21,165 nt of DNA. Source: a virus. A program made the translations under genes and the position numbers. Below are positions 8,843 through 21,164 of the stretch, one piece after another (the stretch's first letter is position 1; every line of letters begins with the position of its first letter). Location: positions 1-21,165 of IMG/VR virus record IMGVR_UViG_3300029787_000401, one strand, 5' to 3'. The notes below the pieces were generated by a model. It ran no database searches and had not been told where the DNA came from. It saw nothing but the letters and a program-made list of their open reading frames with translations.

Positions 8843-9079
8843 ATGACAAAGAAAAAGAAAGAAGGAGTTATCGCTAGTTATAGTGTTATAGTTAACACTG
8901 ATGGACAGTTGATATCAGAAGTGTCAGCTCTTCCAGAAGATGAAGCAGACATTATGAATGAAACATTTAAAAGGAGTGAAGAAGAAAAACATTTCTATGT
9001 TGGCCTTGTAAAAGAACTTAAATTAAAATTTAAAGAACTAGAACAATGGATTCAAAAATATGTTTCATCTATTAACTAA
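8843..9079 (+). CDS. Hypothetical protein, 78 aa
   Basis: The gene starts one base after the reductase stop, with AGAGGA in the end of the reductase gene as ribosome site. The product has a Lys-rich start, an SVIVNTDGQLISEVSALP beta segment and a long charged helix, likely coiled coil (EEEKHFYVGLVKELKLKF onward). No family is recognised. Its stop TAA shares one base with the start of the cyclotransferase gene (TAATG). Co-transcription with the reductase is clear, and a functional link is a guess. Confidence 0.7.
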   Translation: MTKKKKEGVIASYSVIVNTDGQLISEVSALPEDEADIMNETFKRSEEEKHFYVGLVKELKLKFKELEQWIQKYVSSIN

Positions 9080-9459
9080 TGATATATTTTGTATACGGAA
9101 CATTAAAGAAGAACCACAGACTAAACTGGATTTTAGAGGAGTCTGAATTTGTAGGTGAGTGTGAAACTTTACACAGTAACTTTGATATAAAAGATTTTTC
9201 TCAAGGTTGTTTTCCTATTGTATATAGGAGAGAACCTGGATATAGAATTAAAGGTGAAGCTTATAAATTAAAAGGGGATGTTGAACGAAGTGTTCATCTG
9301 TTAGAGATAGGAGCAGGATATAAACCTGCAGAAATAAAAATAGATAAAGATGTAAGTGAGAAATGTATTATGTTTGTATACCCAAAAGAACCAACAATGG
9401 CTATCTCTGATAGTTTTATATCTACCAGAGATAACACAAAAGAGTGGTTAAATCCTTAA
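9079..9459 (+). CDS. Gamma-glutamylcyclotransferase (AIG2/GGCT)-like protein
   Basis: The 126-aa product starts with MIYFVYGTLKK, the YGTLK glycine loop that binds the gamma-glutamyl group in this fold. It continues with the expected GECETL, FPIVYR, RIKGEAYKL and LLEIGAGY segments. The Glu in LLEIGAGY is probably the catalytic acid. Enzymes of this fold release 5-oxoproline from gamma-glutamyl peptides or amines, but the substrate cannot be read from the sequence. It is the last plus-strand gene. Its TAA (9457-9459) overlaps the stop of the convergent minus-strand gene. In a phage it may act on host glutathione or on modified proteins, which is inference. Confidence 0.8.
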   Translation: MIYFVYGTLKKNHRLNWILEESEFVGECETLHSNFDIKDFSQGCFPIVYRREPGYRIKGEAYKLKGDVERSVHLLEIGAGYKPAEIKIDKDVSEKCIMFVYPKEPTMAISDSFISTRDNTKEWLNP

Positions 9460-10299: not shown

Positions 10300-10737
10300 T
10301 TATTTTATTTTTATTGTTTTAGCTTTCTTTTCTTCTGGAAGATTAAGTTTCATCTTAATTAAAAGAATACCATCTTTCAATTCAGCATCCTTTACTTCAA
10401 GATGTTCTGCTAAAGTCCACTTACGAGTGAAAGACCTTTTAGCTATTCCTCTGTGAAGAAAACTATTCTCTTCATCTTTACCTTCTTTTGAAGCTGACAC
10501 AGTTAATGTGTCTTCTTTTACTTCTACATTGACATCACTCTTACTGAATCCAGCTAGAGCCATCTCAAGTTCGTAACCATCATTACCAATCTTACGAATA
10601 TTGTAAGGCGGATAACTCGGTGCTTCAAAGTCTGACAGTGAAGATAGTTGGTCGAATAAAGAATCGAATCCAACTGTTAAGTTTTTAAATGGGTCTGCGT
10701 TGAATACGAGACCTCTTCTATTTGTAGGTAGGTTCAT
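10300..10737 (-). CDS. Small heat shock protein, Hsp20 / alpha-crystallin family (IbpA-like)
   Basis: The 145-aa ATP-independent chaperone keeps unfolding proteins soluble. It shows the bacterial IbpA layout: an N-terminal FDSLFDQLSSL segment and a PPYNIRKIGNDGYELEMALAGF opening of the crystallin domain. The core follows (DVNVEVKEDTLTVSASKE, then FLHRGIAKRSFTRKW and DGILLIKMKLNLPEE), with a C-terminal IKIK tail giving the I-x-I motif used in oligomer assembly. Length is normal for the family. The gene has its own consensus promoter, a leader hairpin and an excellent AAAGGAG site, so it forms a separate unit within the minus-strand arm. Hsp20 genes are known in marine phages, where they may help capsid proteins fold. 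That role is inferred. Confidence 0.93.
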   Translation of the reverse strand: MNLPTNRRGLVFNADPFKNLTVGFDSLFDQLSSLSDFEAPSYPPYNIRKIGNDGYELEMALAGFSKSDVNVEVKEDTLTVSASKEGKDEENSFLHRGIAKRSFTRKWTLAEHLEVKDAELKDGILLIKMKLNLPEEKKAKTIKIK

Positions 10738-10846: not shown

Positions 10847-12340
10847 CTATTTTTTAGAGCTTCTATCTAAAAGACCGCCCTTTTTAAAATTATACTTAAG
10901 TGTAAGTCCTGTTCCTGGACCTTCAAATTTATCTAGTTTAAATTGGTCTTGTTCACCAAATGTTGTTAAGTCTTTAGCTGTATCTACTATACTATCTATA
11001 ATACTTTCTTCTTTTAACTCACCACTATATTTATCTTCAGTATAATTTCCACCTAGTATTTCTTGTGTTTGACTGTAGTTTAAAGAACTATAACCAGCTC
11101 CATAGTATTCATTAAATTTTGGGTTATAAGTTGAAGATGTAGGGTCTAGATATGTTCCATAACCATACATACCTCCACTATACGTAGGACCAAAAGCTGC
11201 TTCTACTTGGGAAACAGTACTACCTGAAGCTTTTCTTTCTTTTCTAGCTTCTTTTCTAGCTTCTTCTTTAGCTTTTATTTCTCTTAGTCTTTTATTTTCT
11301 TCTTCAGTAGCTATCCTTGCTTGTTCTCTTCTATTAGCAGCTTCTTCATCAGCTTTTCTTTGTCTTTCTCTTTCTTTTATTTCACTGACTCTTCTGTTTT
11401 CTTCTTCAGTGGCTATTCTTGCTCGTTCTCGTCTGTCAGCTGCCTCTCTGTCTGCCTTTGCTTTTGCTTCTTTTTCTTTTCTTTGTCTTTCTTGTTCTCT
11501 TTTTTGTCTTTCTCTACCTCTTTTACCGCCATCTCCTGGACCACGACCACCCGTGTTACCACCAGAACCTGAACCACCACCACCGCCGTGAGAGTCAGTG
11601 TGTCCTCTATAACTAGGTATACCTGCTTCTGTTAATTCTCCGCTACCACCTGCATCCCTTAACATCTTTTCTTCTTGTGAATTAATATAAGCTAATCTTT
11701 CTCCCTCTGGTGCATCTTTATTTAAAACTTCTGCCATTTGTTTTTTAACAGAACCACCTTCATTCATTTGAGGTTTTTCCATATCACTTACATTATTTCC
11801 AAACTTAACTAAGTAATCAGAAAGTTTTGTTTCATTAGCATCACTAGGGTTATATTCTCCACCTGTTTCTAAAAACTTTCTCATGCCATACTTACCACCT
11901 AAGTGAGCTACAGCTACTAATCCGTCCATGGTAACAGGACTACCCTGTATTTCTTGCCCTATATATTTTTCTAATTTTCTATCTTTAATATAGTTTTTAA
12001 TATCATTTGTATGCCAAGCAAATACTTCTTCTTGTAGTTCTTTATTATTTAAAAATTCTTCTTTAGAAAAATCTTTATCTTTATCATCTTTAAAATCTTG
12101 TAATCTAGCTTCACCAAATTGATAAGCTCCCATGTATCCTTGAGGATTAACTGCTTGATAGTTTTTAGAACTTTCAGATTCTTTTAAAACTTCTTCAAAA
12201 ACAGGAGGGGCTTCTTCAATACTAGGTTGAGTTGGACGACGAACAGGTATGTTAGACACGTAAGTATCTTTAGAAGAGTTTTTGTTGAACAATCCTGATA
12301 GAAAGTCTGATAAAAATTTTTTGCTAGACATTGACATCAT
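10847..12340 (-). CDS. Virion-associated lytic (transglycosylase-like) protein with coiled-coil repeats
   Basis: The 497-aa protein has an N-terminal muralytic-type domain (about 45-180): EVLKESESSKNYQA, then NPQGYMGAYQFGEARL, later VAVAHLGGKYGMRKFL. Glu 54 or Glu 56 is the likely catalytic acid. A linker with NEGGSVKKQM and ERLAYINSQEEKMLRDAGGSG follows, the latter common in marine phage proteins as I recall. Next are a Gly-rich hinge (251-273) and a highly charged helix (about 274-372) with a 34-residue tandem repeat. The tail is Tyr-rich and ends in KGGLLDRSSKK. In T7 the cell-wall hydrolase is part of ejection protein gp16. Here it appears as a separate gene after the 1500-aa protein, and the two overlap by 17 bases. 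The role is probably to open the peptidoglycan during DNA ejection. Confidence 0.7.
   Translation of the reverse strand: MMSMSSKKFLSDFLSGLFNKNSSKDTYVSNIPVRRPTQPSIEEAPPVFEEVLKESESSKNYQAVNPQGYMGAYQFGEARLQDFKDDKDKDFSKEEFLNNKELQEEVFAWHTNDIKNYIKDRKLEKYIGQEIQGSPVTMDGLVAVAHLGGKYGMRKFLETGGEYNPSDANETKLSDYLVKFGNNVSDMEKPQMNEGGSVKKQMAEVLNKDAPEGERLAYINSQEEKMLRDAGGSGELTEAGIPSYRGHTDSHGGGGGSGSGGNTGGRGPGDGGKRGRERQKREQERQRKEKEAKAKADREAADRRERARIATEEENRRVSEIKERERQRKADEEAANRREQARIATEEENKRLREIKAKEEARKEARKERKASGSTVSQVEAAFGPTYSGGMYGYGTYLDPTSSTYNPKFNEYYGAGYSSLNYSQTQEILGGNYTEDKYSGELKEESIIDSIVDTAKDLTTFGEQDQFKLDKFEGPGTGLTLKYNFKKGGLLDRSSKK
11255..11458 (-). repeat. Two tandem 102-bp repeats encoding a 34-aa charged helix
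   Basis: Codons 295-328 and 329-362 of the lytic protein are tandem copies (11357-11458 and 11255-11356). Each begins KAD-x-EAA and contains RARIATEEEN or QARIATEEEN. Spacing is exactly 102 bases, and base differences are mostly synonymous or conservative. The flanking sequence is also rich in E, K, R and Q, giving a single long charged alpha-helix. Confidence 0.8.
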
Positions 12341-15300
12341 TACTTAAGTTCCTTTTTATTAATACATTAGAACCAGATATTTTATATCTATCTGGAACTT
12401 TAATTACATTGTATGAATCACCTAAAGTTTCTTGAACAAACTTAGTTAATTCTTTTTGAGAGAAAGGTTTTTGAAAAGTTATATTTTTATCACTTCCCAT
12501 TAAGAAACCATCTTTATATTTTTTAGTAGCACCACTAATAGCAGGTCTTGTATTTATGATAGCTATGCCTTCATCATCTAATAATGAAGCTATGTTCTTT
12601 ACTATTTGTGACCTTACTTTAACATCTTCAACTACATTTAATACAGCATGACTAACTATAGCATTAAATTTTGTTTTAGATTCTTTCTTTATTAAATCTT
12701 TTGTTTTTGTATAGTCAGGTAGTTTACCATTTAATTTATTTATTCTACTAGCATTAACATATGGTTCAAAACTTTTAACATCTCCAACCTCTCCTAAAAT
12801 TTTAGAACCTAATCCTAAACCAGAACCATAATCTAAAATATTAACAGCTTCATAATTTTTTTTATTTAAACCTACTTCATCTATTAAAGATGCATATTTA
12901 CCGTAAGTATTTGAAGTAGTTGTTATTTGAGTTTTAGCTGGGTCTCCAAGCAACACATCATCAGCAGATTTTTTAGCTACTTTTTTACCTACTTCAGTTA
13001 AAGTTTTACCAACTACTCCTCCTATATTAAATCCAAATGGTGTCATAACCTCATCACCAAACTGAAGACCAAAATCTCCAGGTTTAACATCAAAATCTCT
13101 ATCTACAAGTGGACTATAATTAAGCCACCATAAATCATCAGGATTTACTTTTACTATTAAATCTCTTATTTCTGGCGGTAATAACCATAAATTTAATTTA
13201 TCCATGTACTCTAACATGTAGTCTGAAAAAGCACCTTCTTCTCTAAAAGGTCTGCCACTTCCTAAATCTTTTGCTGCAGAAAAAGTATCTGATATAGCTT
13301 CATATCCTGGAAAAAAATTTAAAGGTTCTCTAGGATTATATGTTTTAAAACTATATAGTTGAGAAGCTAACCAACCAGGATTACCTGATAAAATTACTCC
13401 ATCTGCAAAAGCATCTACAGGTCTAGTATCTTCTGCCTCAAATCCATTTTTTATATATCTTCTAAGTTGATGTATAGCACTATAAATAGGAAGAGCCATA
13501 AGCATTCCTGTTGCTAACTTAGCATCTCCTTTTTCAATTCTCTGAAGTAATGCGTTTGTCTGAGAAGTTTTTGCTTGTGCCCAAGAACTAAACTGTCCTA
13601 TTAATCTTAGAAGAGGATTTCTAGTTTGAGTAAATAGTAAACGATTACCCACTGCAGGAATAATAGCATCTCTATCCATAGATGCTCTACCAGATTGATT
13701 CATTAATCTTAAACCAACCTCATCAAGTTTTGCTTCTCTCCAACTTTTAAAAGTAGCAAGTTTAGCTATCTCATCTAAATTAATTATTTTTCCTGTGCTA
13801 TCTACTTTAGCCATACCAGAGTCAGCTAATCTTGTATATAGTTTTCTAGCTTTTCTACCTGCAAAAGTTGAAGAACGTATTAAATCTTCTAAATTTTTTC
13901 CTTCTTTAGCAACTAATCTAGCCACATCTTTAGCTAAATTTATTCCATCAATAGCTCCAAAATTATAAGCAAATCTTCTACCTAATAAAGTAACATCTTC
14001 TAATCCTACAGCTTTAAAAAAATATTCATTACCTCTAGATATTGCTTTTAAAATTTTTCCTGGGTCAGCCTCTTGAACGAACGCAGAAGCTCCTAATTTA
14101 TTTAAAGCTTGTCGTGCTACATTATCATGTTGCATATATAAAATGTCAACAGGTTGGTCAGTTTGTTTTAAAGGAACCTTACTAAACGGTAATCTTCTTG
14201 GTAAAATTGGAGTAGCTGCAATACCCTTCATCCATGTACTAAAGTAATAACTATTACTAAAAGCTTGTACTATGTCACCTAAGTTTGCAAGAGCTACAGT
14301 TCCCATTAATCTTGTGTTAGTAAGAAAAGAAGTTAAACCTGCAACTGTTCTTGCAAAGTTTCCAGCTTCATCTCCATGTCTTCCAAATAAAGCATTAATA
14401 GAATTTTTAACTGCTTCTAAATCTGCTTTTTGATAACCAGAAAGAACATTTGGTTTAAATCCTTGTTTTACATATTGTTCAGATAAGTCATCCAAAATTA
14501 AACTTAACCCTCTACCATCAACACCAAAAACTTTAGCAAACTCTACTGATTTTGTAGATTTAGATACCATATTATTAAGAACAAAACTAATATCATTTAT
14601 GAAGTATTTACTGAGAGGTCCTTCTACTTCATCAAATGTTCCTTTTATTAATCTATCAAGCTCCACATGTTCACTTAATGGAAGTTTAAAACCTGCTATA
14701 GTTTTAGAACCTTTTGTTCCTGAAAGTAATCCTACGTCTTTTATTACATTATCGTAGTCTACTTTCATTAACTTATTAAATATATCTTGAGCTTCTTCTC
14801 TGTAAGTGGCTATGCCTCCCTTACCTTTATTTTTGTTTAATAAAACTTTAGCTACATCATCTATAAATGCATCTTGATTTTTTGCTATATAATTTAAATT
14901 ATAAACTCTAGGAAAATAATCAGTTAAAACTTCTTTTATATCAAAACCAGCATCTTCTAAATATTTTTTATGAACTCTTAAAAAAGACTTTGTTTTTTTA
15001 GCTACTTCCATAGCATCTTTAACTACAGTAGTGTTATTTAATTTGTCTTGTTTAATTAAATCTTTTATACTGACAGATTTAAAAGTTTTACCGCTATCTT
15101 CAGTTACTTGAAATACGCTATTTTTCTTTGCTCCTCTAACTATATTATTAGATACTTGTTGAACTAAAACATTACCATAAGTTCTTTCATCTAGTATACC
15201 ACCTTCAGCATATATTAAAGCTTTAAAAGCATCTTTAGTTTCACCAGCTTTTTGTTCTACACTTTTAGTTCCACCTTTAAAACTATGTAATAATAAATTA

Positions 15301-16826
15301 GAAAATCTTTTCATAACAGGACCACGAGATTCTACGGCTGTAGATGTAGTCATGCTTGTATATCTTTTTAAAATCCATAAACTATTATTTAATTTTTGAT
15401 TAATTATTTTATTAAATATTCCATCATTTACTTGTTTGGGTATTATATTTCGTTGTCCTATAAGTCTATAAGCTCCCATGATAGTAGCACCATAAAGTGC
15501 AGAAGATGCAGTATCATCATCAGCCTCTGACATTATTCCATAAGTAGCTCCAATAACTCCACCAAATGTAGGGTAAACAGTACTTGCTAAAATACCTCTC
15601 ATTATTCTGTCAGTAAGAGCTGCCGCACCACCCTTTTTATAAATTTCTTCTGTTATTGCTGCTATATATTCTGCGTTAGCTGATGTAAGAGCTTGTGTAG
15701 CTTTTCTATAGTTGTCAGCTATTTCTAATTTTATTTCTTTTTCTGCTTTTCCTAGAGTAATATTTGTTAGTTTAGTTATTTTACTAATAGAACTATTTTT
15801 AATTTTAACATTTAATAATTCTTCTATATCTGCTATTTCTTTTATAATATTAGCTCGTTCACTAAAAACTTTATAAGACCTAGCTTTATTAAGTGGAGTT
15901 TCTTTTAGTTTTTTTCGTAACTCTTTTAATGTTTGTTTATTTAAACCTACTTGGTCTAAAATTTTTGTAAGTTGTTGGTAATTTCTAAACTCAATAGTGT
16001 TATCTTGAATAGATTTTATTGCAGATTGAATGACTGGATTCTTAGCTATCTCAGAAAGTTTTTCAAAAGATAAATTAGAAGTTTTATTTCTTTTATTTAT
16101 TTCACCAAGAGATGTTTTTATTACATCATCTGCAATACTTTTATTAGAAAATAAAGTAGGAAATACTTTATTTATACCTGCTCTAGCACCTATTCCTAAA
16201 GCTGCAAATGCAGGAGAAAAAGCTGCACCTAATGCAGTTCCTGTAGCCCATTGTTTAGGGTCTATTCTTCCTTCTTGGTCTAACATTCTTAAACCTAAGT
16301 CAGCTCCTGCAGTTCCACCACCTAAAGCCGCTAAAGCTAATCCAGATTTACCTACACCTAAAGTAATATCAGTAGCACCTTTAATTTTTTGACCAGCAGC
16401 AAGAGCAGCTTGACCAGCTTTTACACTAACTTGTCCTGCTTTATAAGCTTTACCACCCCAACCTATCCAAGGAATCCAAAGAATAGGGTCAGCTATAACT
16501 GTGCCCATTTGACCAGCAAAAACAGAAGCGTCATTATCATAAGCACCACTTCTAAATTCAGGATAAGCTTCATAAACTTCTTCCATGTGTTGATTGTAAG
16601 CATCTTCACGACGTTTAGCAAATGTGTCACCTTCTGTGCCTAAACCAGTTCCAGCTTTAAACATTCTCCAAGCACTACCAAGAACCATTGTTTCTTTAGC
16701 AGCACCATATTTTGCTTTTCTAGATTCACTAGGTTCATAAGCTTGAACAAGAGGTTTCGGTATGTTATCTTCTTGTGTAGGAAGAGTTGTTAACTCTTCT
16801 TCAAAAGGTTGAATTTGTAGTACCAT
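12324..16826 (-). CDS. Giant internal virion (ejection) protein with C-terminal methyltransferase
   Basis: The 1500-aa product is the largest in the window and probably the T7 gp16 counterpart, an internal core protein ejected with the DNA. The first 220 residues have Gly/Ala-rich hydrophobic stretches (VFAGQMGTVIADPILWIPW, SGLALAALGGGTAGADLGL, GTALGAAFSPAFAALGIG) that could insert into membrane. The middle is long, helical and Lys-rich, with further hydrophobic stretches. From about residue 1310 a class I SAM methyltransferase follows: NILDYGSGLGLGS (motif I, about 1329-1341), an acidic residue after strand 2 in SFEPY, SHAVLNVVED, then GIAIINTR and a TFQKPFSQKEL segment. I recall this VLNVV and TFQ pattern from MTases tied to DNA modification and to phage polyvalent proteins. 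The 547-aa gene lies 1 base upstream. The ATG at 16826 has no clear ribosome site, so coupling is likely. Confidence 0.75.
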   Translation of the reverse strand: MVLQIQPFEEELTTLPTQEDNIPKPLVQAYEPSESRKAKYGAAKETMVLGSAWRMFKAGTGLGTEGDTFAKRREDAYNQHMEEVYEAYPEFRSGAYDNDASVFAGQMGTVIADPILWIPWIGWGGKAYKAGQVSVKAGQAALAAGQKIKGATDITLGVGKSGLALAALGGGTAGADLGLRMLDQEGRIDPKQWATGTALGAAFSPAFAALGIGARAGINKVFPTLFSNKSIADDVIKTSLGEINKRNKTSNLSFEKLSEIAKNPVIQSAIKSIQDNTIEFRNYQQLTKILDQVGLNKQTLKELRKKLKETPLNKARSYKVFSERANIIKEIADIEELLNVKIKNSSISKITKLTNITLGKAEKEIKLEIADNYRKATQALTSANAEYIAAITEEIYKKGGAAALTDRIMRGILASTVYPTFGGVIGATYGIMSEADDDTASSALYGATIMGAYRLIGQRNIIPKQVNDGIFNKIINQKLNNSLWILKRYTSMTTSTAVESRGPVMKRFSNLLLHSFKGGTKSVEQKAGETKDAFKALIYAEGGILDERTYGNVLVQQVSNNIVRGAKKNSVFQVTEDSGKTFKSVSIKDLIKQDKLNNTTVVKDAMEVAKKTKSFLRVHKKYLEDAGFDIKEVLTDYFPRVYNLNYIAKNQDAFIDDVAKVLLNKNKGKGGIATYREEAQDIFNKLMKVDYDNVIKDVGLLSGTKGSKTIAGFKLPLSEHVELDRLIKGTFDEVEGPLSKYFINDISFVLNNMVSKSTKSVEFAKVFGVDGRGLSLILDDLSEQYVKQGFKPNVLSGYQKADLEAVKNSINALFGRHGDEAGNFARTVAGLTSFLTNTRLMGTVALANLGDIVQAFSNSYYFSTWMKGIAATPILPRRLPFSKVPLKQTDQPVDILYMQHDNVARQALNKLGASAFVQEADPGKILKAISRGNEYFFKAVGLEDVTLLGRRFAYNFGAIDGINLAKDVARLVAKEGKNLEDLIRSSTFAGRKARKLYTRLADSGMAKVDSTGKIINLDEIAKLATFKSWREAKLDEVGLRLMNQSGRASMDRDAIIPAVGNRLLFTQTRNPLLRLIGQFSSWAQAKTSQTNALLQRIEKGDAKLATGMLMALPIYSAIHQLRRYIKNGFEAEDTRPVDAFADGVILSGNPGWLASQLYSFKTYNPREPLNFFPGYEAISDTFSAAKDLGSGRPFREEGAFSDYMLEYMDKLNLWLLPPEIRDLIVKVNPDDLWWLNYSPLVDRDFDVKPGDFGLQFGDEVMTPFGFNIGGVVGKTLTEVGKKVAKKSADDVLLGDPAKTQITTTSNTYGKYASLIDEVGLNKKNYEAVNILDYGSGLGLGSKILGEVGDVKSFEPYVNASRINKLNGKLPDYTKTKDLIKKESKTKFNAIVSHAVLNVVEDVKVRSQIVKNIASLLDDEGIAIINTRPAISGATKKYKDGFLMGSDKNITFQKPFSQKELTKFVQETLGDSYNVIKVPDRYKISGSNVLIKRNLSNDVNV

Positions 16827-16827
16827 G

Positions 16828-18471
16828 TTAGTCGCTGAAATTTGTTTTAAAATTATTTAAAAAATCTTGTTCATCAAGTAACCCACCTTTATTAAGTTGA
16901 GGTATATTATTTATATAATATTCATAAGCTTGTGGATAACTATTTTTTAACTCCTCTAAATTTTTAGGGTCTTTTAAACTTTCAAGGTCAATAGAACCTG
17001 GTTTACCATCAACTGACGGAATATCTCCACCTATTAATTTTCCATCTTGTATCGTAGGAGCTATAGTTGTTGGTGGGTCAATAACTTCTTCACCAGTGTC
17101 AATTGTCTCTTCTGTAGTAGTTCCAAGAAAAGTATTAGCTGTTGATTGAACTATTAATGGGAAAGTATTATTTATAAAGTTTTTCTTTTCTTCATCACTA
17201 ACACCTTTCCATGATTGTAAAGTTTTAAACTCTTCTTTTGTTTTTTCTTGTACAGCTGATTTAAACTCATCTAATTTTTGGTCATTAGCTAGTCCTATTA
17301 AATCTTCAGTTGAAACAATAGATTGAGGTATCATGTAAACTCTTAATTTATCTGAGCCAAAGATAGCTTTATAATCGTTAGCTCTAAAATCAATAGTTCT
17401 AGCTTTACCTATTGTTTCTGTTAAATTCATTACATAGTCTCTATCTATAAACGTTTGATAGGTATTATAGCTAGGATTTAAAGTAAAAGAAATGTCTGCT
17501 TTTTTATAAACTTCATCAAGTATAGGAGCAATAGAATTAAAGAACTTTCTACCCTCTAAAGTTAAACCTTTTCGTACTTGTTTTCCTTCAACAGTATCAA
17601 TTACAAATAGGTCATCTACTTCGTCTGTGCTTAACTGTAAAATATTTTGTAGTAATTGAGCATAAGCATTATAATCATCACTATTCATATTTACAATTCC
17701 TTGAAATTCTCGTTGCCATGTATCATAAGCACCTTCATAACCTGCTGATTTTAAAAACTCTTGTCTTAGTTCAAGGTCTTCAGCAGTAGGTTCACCAATA
17801 AGTTTTGATTCTATAGGATTAACATTAACACTTCTTGTTTCTGGGTCATTAAAGAAATTTTTATAATCCATAGTTTTAAGTTTAGTTTTTTCTGTAAACT
17901 CTTCTTGTATTTTTCCAAGGATTTCGTCTGTATTATTTGTTCTTCCTTTAATTCTGTTAGTTATATCTCCTCTAATATCTAAATCTTCTGTGGCTTTACT
18001 CATCGCTTGAGCATCATAGTAAGAAGATAAAAGAGGTTCAATAGGTTCTGGAACAGAATCTGTAAACTCTACTCTAACAGCATTATTTATATTATCTACT
18101 TTTTTACCATCAGCATCAAAACCCATAAAATTAGCTTTATAGTTGTTAATAATATTTCTTCTAGTTGATGGGCTTTCTATAGTTGTTAAATCATAACCAT
18201 CTAATAGAGCTAATTCTGAAGCTAAAGTATCAACATCTCCAGCATAGTTACTAGTTAAACTTTTTATTTTATTTTCTCTAGTTCTATAATTTTTTATATC
18301 ATCTTCATATATTGCAGTATCTCTATCGTACCTATTAAAAGCTTCTTGTCTCCAATATTTTCCTTCTTCAGCTAGTAACTCTTTAGCCTCAGCTGAGTTT
18401 ACTTCAAAACTGTCATTATCTATATCAGCTACAGTATATAATATATCTTTAAATAAATCTAGTTTACTCAT
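16828..18471 (-). CDS. Probable internal virion protein, 547 aa
   Basis: The protein is acidic, helical and polar, without signal peptide or membrane segment. It has no motif I can name. The C-terminus carries QLNKGGLLDEQDFL (528-533 is KGGLLD), a hexapeptide also found at the end of the 497-aa lytic protein. It lies directly upstream of the 1500-aa ejection protein (stop and start one base apart) and overlaps the 209-aa gene by 8 bases. By analogy with the T7 gp14-gp15-gp16 order it may be a core or ejection protein. A GAGG site precedes the ATG. The role is inferred from position and size. Confidence 0.6.
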   Translation of the reverse strand: MSKLDLFKDILYTVADIDNDSFEVNSAEAKELLAEEGKYWRQEAFNRYDRDTAIYEDDIKNYRTRENKIKSLTSNYAGDVDTLASELALLDGYDLTTIESPSTRRNIINNYKANFMGFDADGKKVDNINNAVRVEFTDSVPEPIEPLLSSYYDAQAMSKATEDLDIRGDITNRIKGRTNNTDEILGKIQEEFTEKTKLKTMDYKNFFNDPETRSVNVNPIESKLIGEPTAEDLELRQEFLKSAGYEGAYDTWQREFQGIVNMNSDDYNAYAQLLQNILQLSTDEVDDLFVIDTVEGKQVRKGLTLEGRKFFNSIAPILDEVYKKADISFTLNPSYNTYQTFIDRDYVMNLTETIGKARTIDFRANDYKAIFGSDKLRVYMIPQSIVSTEDLIGLANDQKLDEFKSAVQEKTKEEFKTLQSWKGVSDEEKKNFINNTFPLIVQSTANTFLGTTTEETIDTGEEVIDPPTTIAPTIQDGKLIGGDIPSVDGKPGSIDLESLKDPKNLEELKNSYPQAYEYYINNIPQLNKGGLLDEQDFLNNFKTNFSD

Positions 18472-19845: not shown

Positions 19846-19991
19846 TACTTAATTTCTTTTAATGGTTTTTTTGGTTTGTTAATAACAGCTCCACCTTTAT
19901 TGTAACCCATTCTAGCTACAACTTCTGGTTCTTTTTCTTTTAGTGCTCTTAGTCCAGCACCTTTTGGACCTTCTGGTATTTGATTAGCCAC
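19845..19991 (-). CDS. Conserved small phage protein with KGG motif, 48 aa
   Basis: The only good start is GTG at 19991, just after the GGAGG of GGAGGATACC, with normal spacing. The product reads ANQIPEGPKGAGLRALKEKE, then PEVVARMGYNKGGAVINKP and a Lys-rich end. The IPEGPKGAGLRAL and ARMGYNKGGAV blocks are typical of a tiny marine phage family. The start overlaps the upstream gene by 8 bases and the stop overlaps the next ATG by one. The KGG element recurs in two large virion proteins of this window. Confidence 0.7.
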   Translation of the reverse strand: MANQIPEGPKGAGLRALKEKEPEVVARMGYNKGGAVINKPKKPLKEIK

Positions 19992-20172
19992 GGTATCCTC
20001 CTCCTGCTTTCTTATAAGCTTTTGCTAACATTTGTGCTTTACGAGCTGACCATTGTCCTGGTCCGCCACCTTTACTACCTGCCTTTATTCTGGCAAATAT
20101 TCTTTTTCTTAAACCAGGCTTTGTATAATTACCTGCTTGATTTACTTTACTTTTAGATTTTTTTGCAGCCAT
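19984..20172 (-). CDS. Conserved small basic phage protein, 62 aa
   Basis: The ATG at 20172 has GGAGG 8 bases upstream and is preferred over a TTG 15 bases earlier. The product is MAAKKSKSKVNQAGNYTKPG, then LRKRIFARIKAGSKGGGPGQ and WSARKAQMLAKAYKKAGGGY. This is a recurrent marine phage family with a very basic, Gly-rich sequence, suited to nucleic-acid binding. Function is unknown. The upstream gene stops on the first base of its ATG (TAATG) and the downstream GTG start overlaps its end. Confidence 0.8.
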   Translation of the reverse strand: MAAKKSKSKVNQAGNYTKPGLRKRIFARIKAGSKGGGPGQWSARKAQMLAKAYKKAGGGYRG

Positions 20173-20321
20173 TAAATTAACCTCCAATATTCTGCTAGTT
20201 TTTCTTGAGAAGATTGTCTATGTTTTTCTAAGTCTTTCTTTTTATTTTTTATAACTTGAGACTTATATTTAGATGTTCTTAATTCTTTAGCCACAGGATT
20301 ATTATTTAATAATTTTTTCAC
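20172..20321 (-). CDS. Small basic phage protein with GTG start, 49 aa
   Basis: The frame runs from GTG at 20321 to TAA at 20174-20172, reading KKLLNNNPVAKELRTSKYK, then SQVIKNKKKDLEKHRQSSQE and KLAEYWRLI. The NPVAKELRTSKY block and basic KNKKKD segment are reminiscent of a small family found beside structural genes in marine phages. The GTG lies inside the end of the upstream secreted protein gene, and a second GTG (at 20294) is possible. Overlap with both neighbours and conservation-like sequence support it as real. No function is known. Confidence 0.6.
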   Translation of the reverse strand: MKKLLNNNPVAKELRTSKYKSQVIKNKKKDLEKHRQSSQEKLAEYWRLI

Positions 20322-20529
20322 AATGTTTTACACCAGTTTGGTCTATTGAAAATTCACATTTTTCTAGAGTGCAAGTATATTGTACTTGATTGCCAGAGTT
20401 TCTTTCGGCCGTGCGTTTGGCTGCGAGACATGTACTCAAATTATCCTGGTGATACCAACCTTCAATAGTTTTGTTGCCACCATCATAGACGTACAAACTA
20501 AGTATGATAACTGTTTCAATGATTCCCAT
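20302..20529 (-). CDS. Small secreted Cys-rich protein, 75 aa
   Basis: An N-terminal hydrophobic stretch (MGIIETVIILSLYVY) should act as a signal anchor or uncleaved signal. A small domain with four Cys (34, 53, 58, 70) follows, enough for two disulfides. It contains STCLAAKRTAERNSGNQVQY and TCTLEKCEF. The layout mirrors the 75-aa gene at 9456-9683. It overlaps the spanin-like gene by 14 bases. There is no lipobox Cys near a signal cleavage site, so it is not a classical outer-membrane spanin. A GAGGAACG site precedes the ATG. A periplasmic role is likely and function is unknown. Confidence 0.7.
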   Translation of the reverse strand: MGIIETVIILSLYVYDGGNKTIEGWYHQDNLSTCLAAKRTAERNSGNQVQYTCTLEKCEFSIDQTGVKHCEKIIK

Positions 20530-20890
20530 TCTTTCGTTCCTCTAAATCTATTAATCTTTCTTCATGAAACTGTATAATCATTTCATTCTTTAATATGAGT
20601 GGTATCTCAGCTTCCATTTGCTCTTTAAGTTTTTCTGTACTTTCAGCAAGATACTCAACTAACATATAGAGTTCTTGAACTTGTGGACTAACCATGTCTC
20701 CTTTAGGAACTCCATCAATAAAAGTATTTGCAGCATCTAAATCTTTTTCCATAAGCTGAAGTTTTGTTTCTATATTATTAAGCCGCTCAATGACTCCAAA
20801 CCCGAACCAAGCACCCACAACACAAGCACCAATAATGCTGATAAGATTACGAGCTGGCATTGAGATGGAGGTGTTTTCACTTATTTTCAT
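20516..20890 (-). CDS. Membrane-anchored coiled-coil protein, spanin-like
   Basis: The 124-aa protein has a polar N-terminus, a membrane segment at about 15-35 (LISIIGACVVGAWFGFGVIE) and then a long heptad-like helix (RLNNIETKLQLMEKDLDA and further). The last half is a charged helix (STEKLKEQMEAE, HEERLIDLEERK). One N-terminal membrane helix plus periplasmic coiled coil is the architecture of inner-membrane spanins such as lambda Rz. I recall similar proteins in marine phages as hypothetical. It overlaps the secreted Cys protein, which could be a partner, and follows the metallothionein-like ORF by 2 bases. A tail or core structural role remains possible. Confidence 0.65.
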   Translation of the reverse strand: MKISENTSISMPARNLISIIGACVVGAWFGFGVIERLNNIETKLQLMEKDLDAANTFIDGVPKGDMVSPQVQELYMLVEYLAESTEKLKEQMEAEIPLILKNEMIIQFHEERLIDLEERKNGNH

Positions 20891-20892
20891 TT

Positions 20893-20991
20893 TTAATCTT
20901 CATAACATTCACAGTTTAAACATCCACAATCTTCAATAGGACATTGACCACTATTACTACAATGACAACTATGTTCACAAGACTCACACAT
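20893..20991 (-). CDS. Metallothionein-like Cys-rich peptide, 32 aa
   Basis: The ORF of 33 codons encodes a peptide with nine Cys (2, 5, 9, 11, 17, 22, 24, 27, 29) and two His (7, 10). It starts MCESCEHSCHCS and ends CGCLNCECYED. The C-x-x-C, C-x-C, HC-H-C and C-x-x-C-x-C spacings are those of metallothioneins and other thiolate-cluster metal binders. There is no Lys or Arg and many acidic residues. Upstream it starts 4 bases past the stop of the previous gene, and downstream the next ATG is 2 bases away, so it sits in the operon without gaps. Nine Cys in 32 codons is very unlikely by chance. It probably binds Zn, Cu or Cd ions, free or in the virion. Its ribosome site is weak. Confidence 0.65.
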   Translation of the reverse strand: MCESCEHSCHCSNSGQCPIEDCGCLNCECYED

Positions 20992-20993
20992 AA

Positions 20994-21164
20994 TTACCAC
21001 TTAACTTTATCAGCCCAATAAGCTGCAGACATTTTACCTTTTGATATATTTTTTCTATGTCTAGCTTTAAATGATTTACGTTTAGCTTTCATTCTTGCTG
21101 ACTCTCCTGACTTAGGTTTACCTGCAGTACTAGCTCCTTGTTCTCCAAATCTTATAGTTTTAAC
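20994..21164 (-). CDS. Conserved small basic phage protein, C-terminal 56 aa
   Basis: The frame is open from the right window edge to TAA at 20996-20994, so the N-terminus is missing. The visible part reads TIRFGEQGASTAGKPKSGES, then ARMKAKRKSFKARHRKNISK and GKMSAAYWADKVKW. The SFKARHRKNI and SAAYWADKVKW segments match a protein type I recall from many T4-like and T7-like marine phages, usually located near head or tail genes. The basic charge suggests DNA contact. Function is unknown. Confidence 0.7.
   Translation of the reverse strand, partial: VKTIRFGEQGASTAGKPKSGESARMKAKRKSFKARHRKNISKGKMSAAYWADKVKW

Follow-up and report, generated by a model that had tools for sequence, protein, structure and literature searches.

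A 21,165-base IMG/VR virus record, analysed here over its whole length and referred to as the window, carries on its minus strand a very small, Cys-rich open reading frame (ORF), which raises the question of whether such an ORF is a gene and, if so, what its product might do. The Cys-rich ORF occupies positions 20893..20991 (-), starts with ATG and is translated as MCESCEHSCHCSNSGQCPIEDCGCLNCECYED, a peptide of 32 aa with 9 Cys (28%) at positions 2, 5, 9, 11, 17, 22, 24, 27 and 29 and 2 His at positions 7 and 10, arranged as C-x2-C-x-H-x-C-H-C-x5-C-x4-C-x-C-x2-C-x-C. The sole aromatic residue besides His is Tyr30, which lies outside the ligand core defined below. The ATG is located 2 nt past the stop codon of the upstream gene and the stop codon 2 nt ahead of the ATG of the downstream gene; the translation and these gaps confirm the preliminary description of a tiny minus-strand ORF with 9 Cys in 32 residues that fits tightly between two genes. 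A program-made ORF list contains a 35-aa GTG-start form, and the ATG at 20991 is the start consistent with the family. The window ORF lacks a clear Shine-Dalgarno sequence, and its translation would depend on coupling to the upstream gene.

The plus strand of the window encodes a T7-type primase-helicase, a family A DNA polymerase and a B12-dependent-type ribonucleotide reductase, and the minus strand encodes virion-type genes, including those of the block to which the Cys-rich ORF belongs. Upstream gene A (20994..21164, -) is cut by the contig end, leaving the C-terminal 56 aa of a basic protein of phrog_7595 (PHROG E=5e-26). Downstream lie gene B (20516..20890, -; 124 aa with an N-terminal hydrophobic segment; phrog_20984), which often adjoins the Cys-rich ORF in other phages, gene C (20302..20529, -; 75 aa; phrog_24646), which comes after B in pelagiphages, and gene E (19984..20187, -; phrog_17747), coding for a small basic protein and directly adjoining the Cys-rich ORF in other phages. 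Because the same strand block contains the gene for a large virion-type protein (12324..16826, -) with similarity to the internal virion protein phrog_342 (E=5e-8), the ORF is placed in the late or virion region, an assignment already made in the preliminary description and borne out by the same-strand virion genes as well as by late-module neighbours in other phages. Of 41 records with relatives of gene B, 37 are Pelagibacter phages, and hence the host of the window virus is likely of the SAR11 type. Three other products of the window deserve mention. The 1500-aa virion-type protein encoded at 12324-16826(-) matches phrog_342 at residues 741-858, and its C-terminal end is methyltransferase-like (Methyltransf_23, residues 1310-1466, E=1.1e-5, narrowly below the Pfam score threshold), which makes it a fusion of an unusual kind. 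A small heat-shock protein, HSP20, is encoded next to the virion block (10300-10737(-), E=2.6e-18), and a gamma-glutamyl cyclotransferase-like (GGACT) protein at 9079-9459(+) (E=1.6e-10).

When the window was simulated 150 times with a first-order Markov model, no 32-aa open stretch contained more than 8 Cys and the family motif had 0 occurrences. The decisive evidence for a real ORF, above the simulations, is the conservation of the putative ligand pattern. Six ORFs of the same design are present in 80 IMG/VR loci retrieved with gene B, and with their alignment as the query 119 encoding stretches were identified in IMG/VR. A DNA pattern scan of IMG/VR, fixed only on the first seven ligands (C-x2-C-x-H-x-C-H-C-x5-C), gave at least 119 matches, a set overlapping with that of the alignment search; among the pattern matches listed, 116 of 119 have a further three Cys and the last His or Cys at family spacing. 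In total, at least 190 loci, at least 158 of them distinct by local DNA, and at least 148 distinct proteins of 28-70 aa, each with 8-11 Cys, have been assigned to the family in IMG/VR. On this sequence evidence, the Cys-rich ORF is a member of a large, previously unannotated peptide family of marine phages.

The family pattern is C-x2-C-x-H-x-C-H-C-x5-C-x1-5-C-x-C-x2-C-x-[HC], an 11-ligand core of 26-28 residues to which the window peptide is an exact fit. Most relatives have 8 Cys and 3 His, where the window peptide has 9 and 2. None of the searches constrained the last ligand position; it is occupied by His in 119 and by Cys in 29 of the 148 distinct sequences and by no other residue, the window peptide being a Cys variant. 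C2, C5, H7, C9, H10, C11, C17, C22, C24 and C27 are invariant in an alignment of 56 diverse members, with the invariance of H7 and H10 being partly imposed by the search patterns. Many members, the window's included, scarcely exceed the core (28-36 aa), and 70 of the 148 have a conserved N[AP]LD[DE]F tail, which is absent from the window peptide; no other copy of the exact pattern of the window peptide's own C-terminus was found. As to individual members, one IMG/VR contig (G002, 73,595 bases) encodes two different ones, L312 and L204, 37 kb apart, and L289 is a pattern match with variant spacing, CKSCGHPCHCDGDGICKKCANDVCGYCKCE, possibly from a longer branch of the family. A subgroup comprising L179 (3935-4144), L192 (877-1077) and their relatives starts with MQLDLxL or similar, an N-terminus that we take to resemble the bacterial sliding-clamp binding motif.

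At each ligand column, the two synonymous codons of the residue, Cys or His, are both in frequent use, which indicates conservation of the amino acid rather than of the DNA sequence. For sequence pairs that differ by less than 25%, the core has a pN/pS of 0.15 in the 26-residue class and 0.19 in the 28-residue class; omission of the ligand codons, which the search itself had constrained, gives 0.30 and 0.34, respectively. The peptide is under purifying selection, which reaches the codons between the ligands. A structured RNA in place of a protein was also considered and rejected (fold z=-0.8). A strong Shine-Dalgarno-like sequence is found ahead of 87 of 189 members.

Family members are generally transcribed with their neighbours' orientation: the longest neighbouring ORF is co-directional upstream in 115 of 125 cases and downstream in 122 of 135. 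The small late genes B, C, E, F and G of the window recur as neighbours, a tail/portal adaptor of the P22 gp4/Pam1 type adjoins the Cys-rich ORF in 21 loci, and other neighbours, assigned by eye, are portal-like, terminase-small-subunit-like and long virion-region proteins. The slot itself differs, being located before B, after B, beside E or after G, and the order A-ORF-B occurs in the window only. In the cultured phage HTVC026P the phrog_7595 gene overlaps B by 4 nt, giving the same neighbours without an insert, and in HTVC041P the phrog_7595 gene is followed by the Cys-rich ORF and then by the capsid gene. The preliminary description had proposed that loss of the ORF or its Cys residues from relatives sharing the flanking genes would speak against it. 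The ORF is indeed absent from most of these, a family member being present anywhere in the locus in 3 of the 94 loci that contain the upstream gene and 31 of the 106 that contain the downstream one, and in none of one set of relatives retrieved by the upstream gene; the ligands, on the other hand, are complete in nearly all of the pattern matches listed (the 116 of 119 above). The variable slots, the insert-free HTVC026P and the many relatives without the ORF point to an accessory gene that has been moved among late-region slots, and such a patchy gene is not essential.

Relatives have also been identified in cultured pelagiphages. Searches of annotated phages by tblastn with the 32-aa peptide or two longer relatives returned nothing useful, the low-complexity filter probably masking Cys-rich queries, and the relatives were recovered by profile searches of whole records and by using a less repetitive relative as the query. 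The members in HTVC041P (17805-17975, unannotated, E=2.8e-7), Gjalp (gp42, QLF88234.1, MSRKEKCKQCHHECHCKEELHSDKYGLCTCEECKCKKEFSNKDFWKVMSSRFNK, annotated as hypothetical) and the cultured pelagiphage Eyrgjafa form one branch. The HTVC023P ORF (29068-29163, E=4.9e-4), most of which is without an annotated gene while its start overlaps one, is a likely member, though a weaker one than that of HTVC041P, and HTVC106P gp36 (QGZ18079.1; L521, 853-1050; E=0.017), for which the spacing is the argument, is the weakest candidate. That the HTVC041P and HTVC023P relatives are likewise unannotated agrees with the earlier remark that the window ORF is too short for ordinary gene calling. Like the family, these small pelagiphage proteins have a C-x2-C-x-[HC]-x-C-H-C head and a C-x-C-x2-C end, and the HTVC041P and Gjalp members resemble that of the window in their late module position, with scaffold and capsid genes near. 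The Gjalp, HTVC041P and HTVC106P proteins differ from the family in having a longer loop and in the missing fifth Cys, near which a His is found, and this looks like a further Cys/His exchange. Unlike the window peptide, these three carry extra tails or an N-terminal segment: a related FWK-type tail is present in HTVC041P and Gjalp, and in HTVC106P gp36 the Cys domain is fused behind an N-terminal amphipathic-looking segment, MIDKIIYSFFGWLDKF. In HTVC034P, HTVC021P, HTVC048P and others, this segment is encoded by a small ORF of its own immediately upstream of gene B.

No relative was identified in 385 alphaproteobacterial genomes. A profile scan of genome contigs yielded no family member, and a DNA pattern scan of genome contigs gave, among the full-motif matches listed, only CCHCCH-type low-complexity repeats. 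Within the collections searched, the family is thus phage-restricted. A paper on phage metallothioneins was not found in a literature search whose coverage left out most subscription journals and bioRxiv.

What, then, might the peptide do? The pattern strongly implies metal-thiolate binding, most likely of zinc. A metal-thiolate cluster fits because 11 ligands are packed into 26-28 residues with hardly any hydrophobic residues and with strict Cys/His exchange at one position, and zinc is the probable metal since His makes up roughly one in four of the ligands, a proportion that suits Zn better than Cu(I). The earlier idea of a probably metal-binding thiolate phage peptide is supported by ligand conservation across the family. 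The specific roles put forward with it, namely delivery of Zn to the primase-helicase, protection against copper and a place in the particle, are speculative. We hypothesize that the Cys-rich ORF is a late-region phage gene whose product is a minimal metallothionein-like peptide, which would form a Zn cluster and act as a late zinc buffer or donor, a reading to which we give about an even chance. The 11 Cys/His ligands would enclose several metal ions, 3-4 Zn(II) being the most likely load, in a thiolate cluster formed in the reducing cytoplasm; late in infection, as suggested by the placement in the late region, the peptide would catch zinc freed from dismantled host proteins and pass it on to late proteins of phage or host in a zinc-poor cell. 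A widespread phage-only metallothionein family, made late and controlling or removing a trace metal that is scarce for abundant ocean-bacterial hosts, is also conceivable and is put forward somewhat more tentatively.

For a pure metal buffer, the N[AP]LD[DE]F tail of about half of the members would be superfluous, and it is this tail, together with the helix predicted there with modest confidence, that makes a zinc-folded docking peptide the main rival, unlikely as we consider it on balance. A structural Cys/His zinc cluster would then present a short surface or a C-terminal helix to a late partner from host or phage, and storage would not be the point. Consistent with this are the tail and the constraint on non-ligand codons, the related tail of HTVC041P and Gjalp, the HTVC106P fusion and a C-terminal helix predicted at residues 47-67 of a long member, whose mean pLDDT is only 62. 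However, many members have little beyond the core, tails vary among groups, and 11 ligands in 26-28 residues is a density far above that of usual single-zinc folds. A virion component, packaged or located at the tail or capsid, whose metal cluster would stabilise or arm the particle, would agree with the adjacent adaptor in 21 loci and the close capsid genes of HTVC041P and Gjalp, but the position varies among phages, many close relatives lack the gene and packaging does not follow from a late location alone, making this improbable. Cys-rich peptides can serve in copper or cadmium defence or as a thiol sink, and members with 10-11 Cys could be read in this way; nevertheless, Zn is favoured by the two to three ligand positions with conserved His and by the strict Cys/His exchange, and a redox sink would not need the fixed spacing, so that such a role in late infection is more improbable still. 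The high Cys content alone would speak for a disulfide-bonded peptide or for a chance ORF, and both are scarcely credible, the former being rejected on the odd Cys counts (9 or 11 in 26 of 148 members) and conserved His, with no signal peptide seen, and the latter being excluded by the ligand pattern in about 158 distinct IMG/VR loci, by selection and by the Markov simulations.

Phage trace-metal handling has mostly been discussed in terms of iron in tails. The peptides described here are the products of a compact gene family that escapes standard gene callers and domain libraries and keeps its 11-ligand core across numerous phage contigs with differing gene neighbourhoods. The family is present in cultured phages of Candidatus Pelagibacter and, should zinc binding be true, phage trace-metal control would be directly testable in cultivated SAR11 systems. 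In a pelagiphage transcriptome study, host zur is reported to be up-regulated in HTVC027P infection (PMC12753301), which serves as context only, as no family member was found when HTVC027P was searched for one.

How does a putative late zinc-binding peptide of this design compare to known metallothioneins? Five AlphaFold models of the window peptide have pLDDT values of 60-85, the best reaching 85, and a Foldseek search of the PDB with the metal-free model gave no match at E<=10; little weight is placed on the predicted structure, since metals are not modelled. At the level of domain models, Metallothio_Pro (SmtA) is absent from the Pfam matches of 56 members at E<=1, the other Pfam metallothionein models gave no significant match across members (Metallothio_2, best E=0.0017 in one; Metallothio_5, E>=0.029 in six), and PHROG and NCBIfam matches are scattered over one or two members only. 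Like metallothioneins in general, the peptides are small and very Cys-rich, with C-x-C and C-x2-C spacing, and the putative metal-binding part of the window peptide has no aromatics besides His. They share with SmtA/BmtA the small Cys-rich protein with His co-ligands, and the 9 Cys and 2 His of the window peptide equal the ligand count of SmtA, whose cluster is reported to be Zn4Cys9His2 (PMC10119931). In contrast, SmtA has 56 aa whereas the phage core has 26-28 residues, the order of the Cys residues differs, and the family is found in phages. The mammalian MT-1 beta domain (PDB 1dft) contains CSCSTGGSCTCTSSCACKNCKC, with a spacing nearly identical to that of the phage half C-x-C-x5-C-...-C-x-C-x2-C-x-[CH], and scores 11.8 bits against the family profile, as compared to 2.1 +/- 1.9 for Cys-keeping shuffles (0 of 500 as high). 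However, the E-value of MT-1 in the PDB search is 1.4, which is not significant and leaves homology unsupported, and the C-x2-C-x-H head and the conserved His in C-H-C are additional features of the phage family; the resemblance is likely due to convergence. Taken by their sequences, the phage peptides appear to form a new, phage-specific metallothionein-like family outside every curated metallothionein family.
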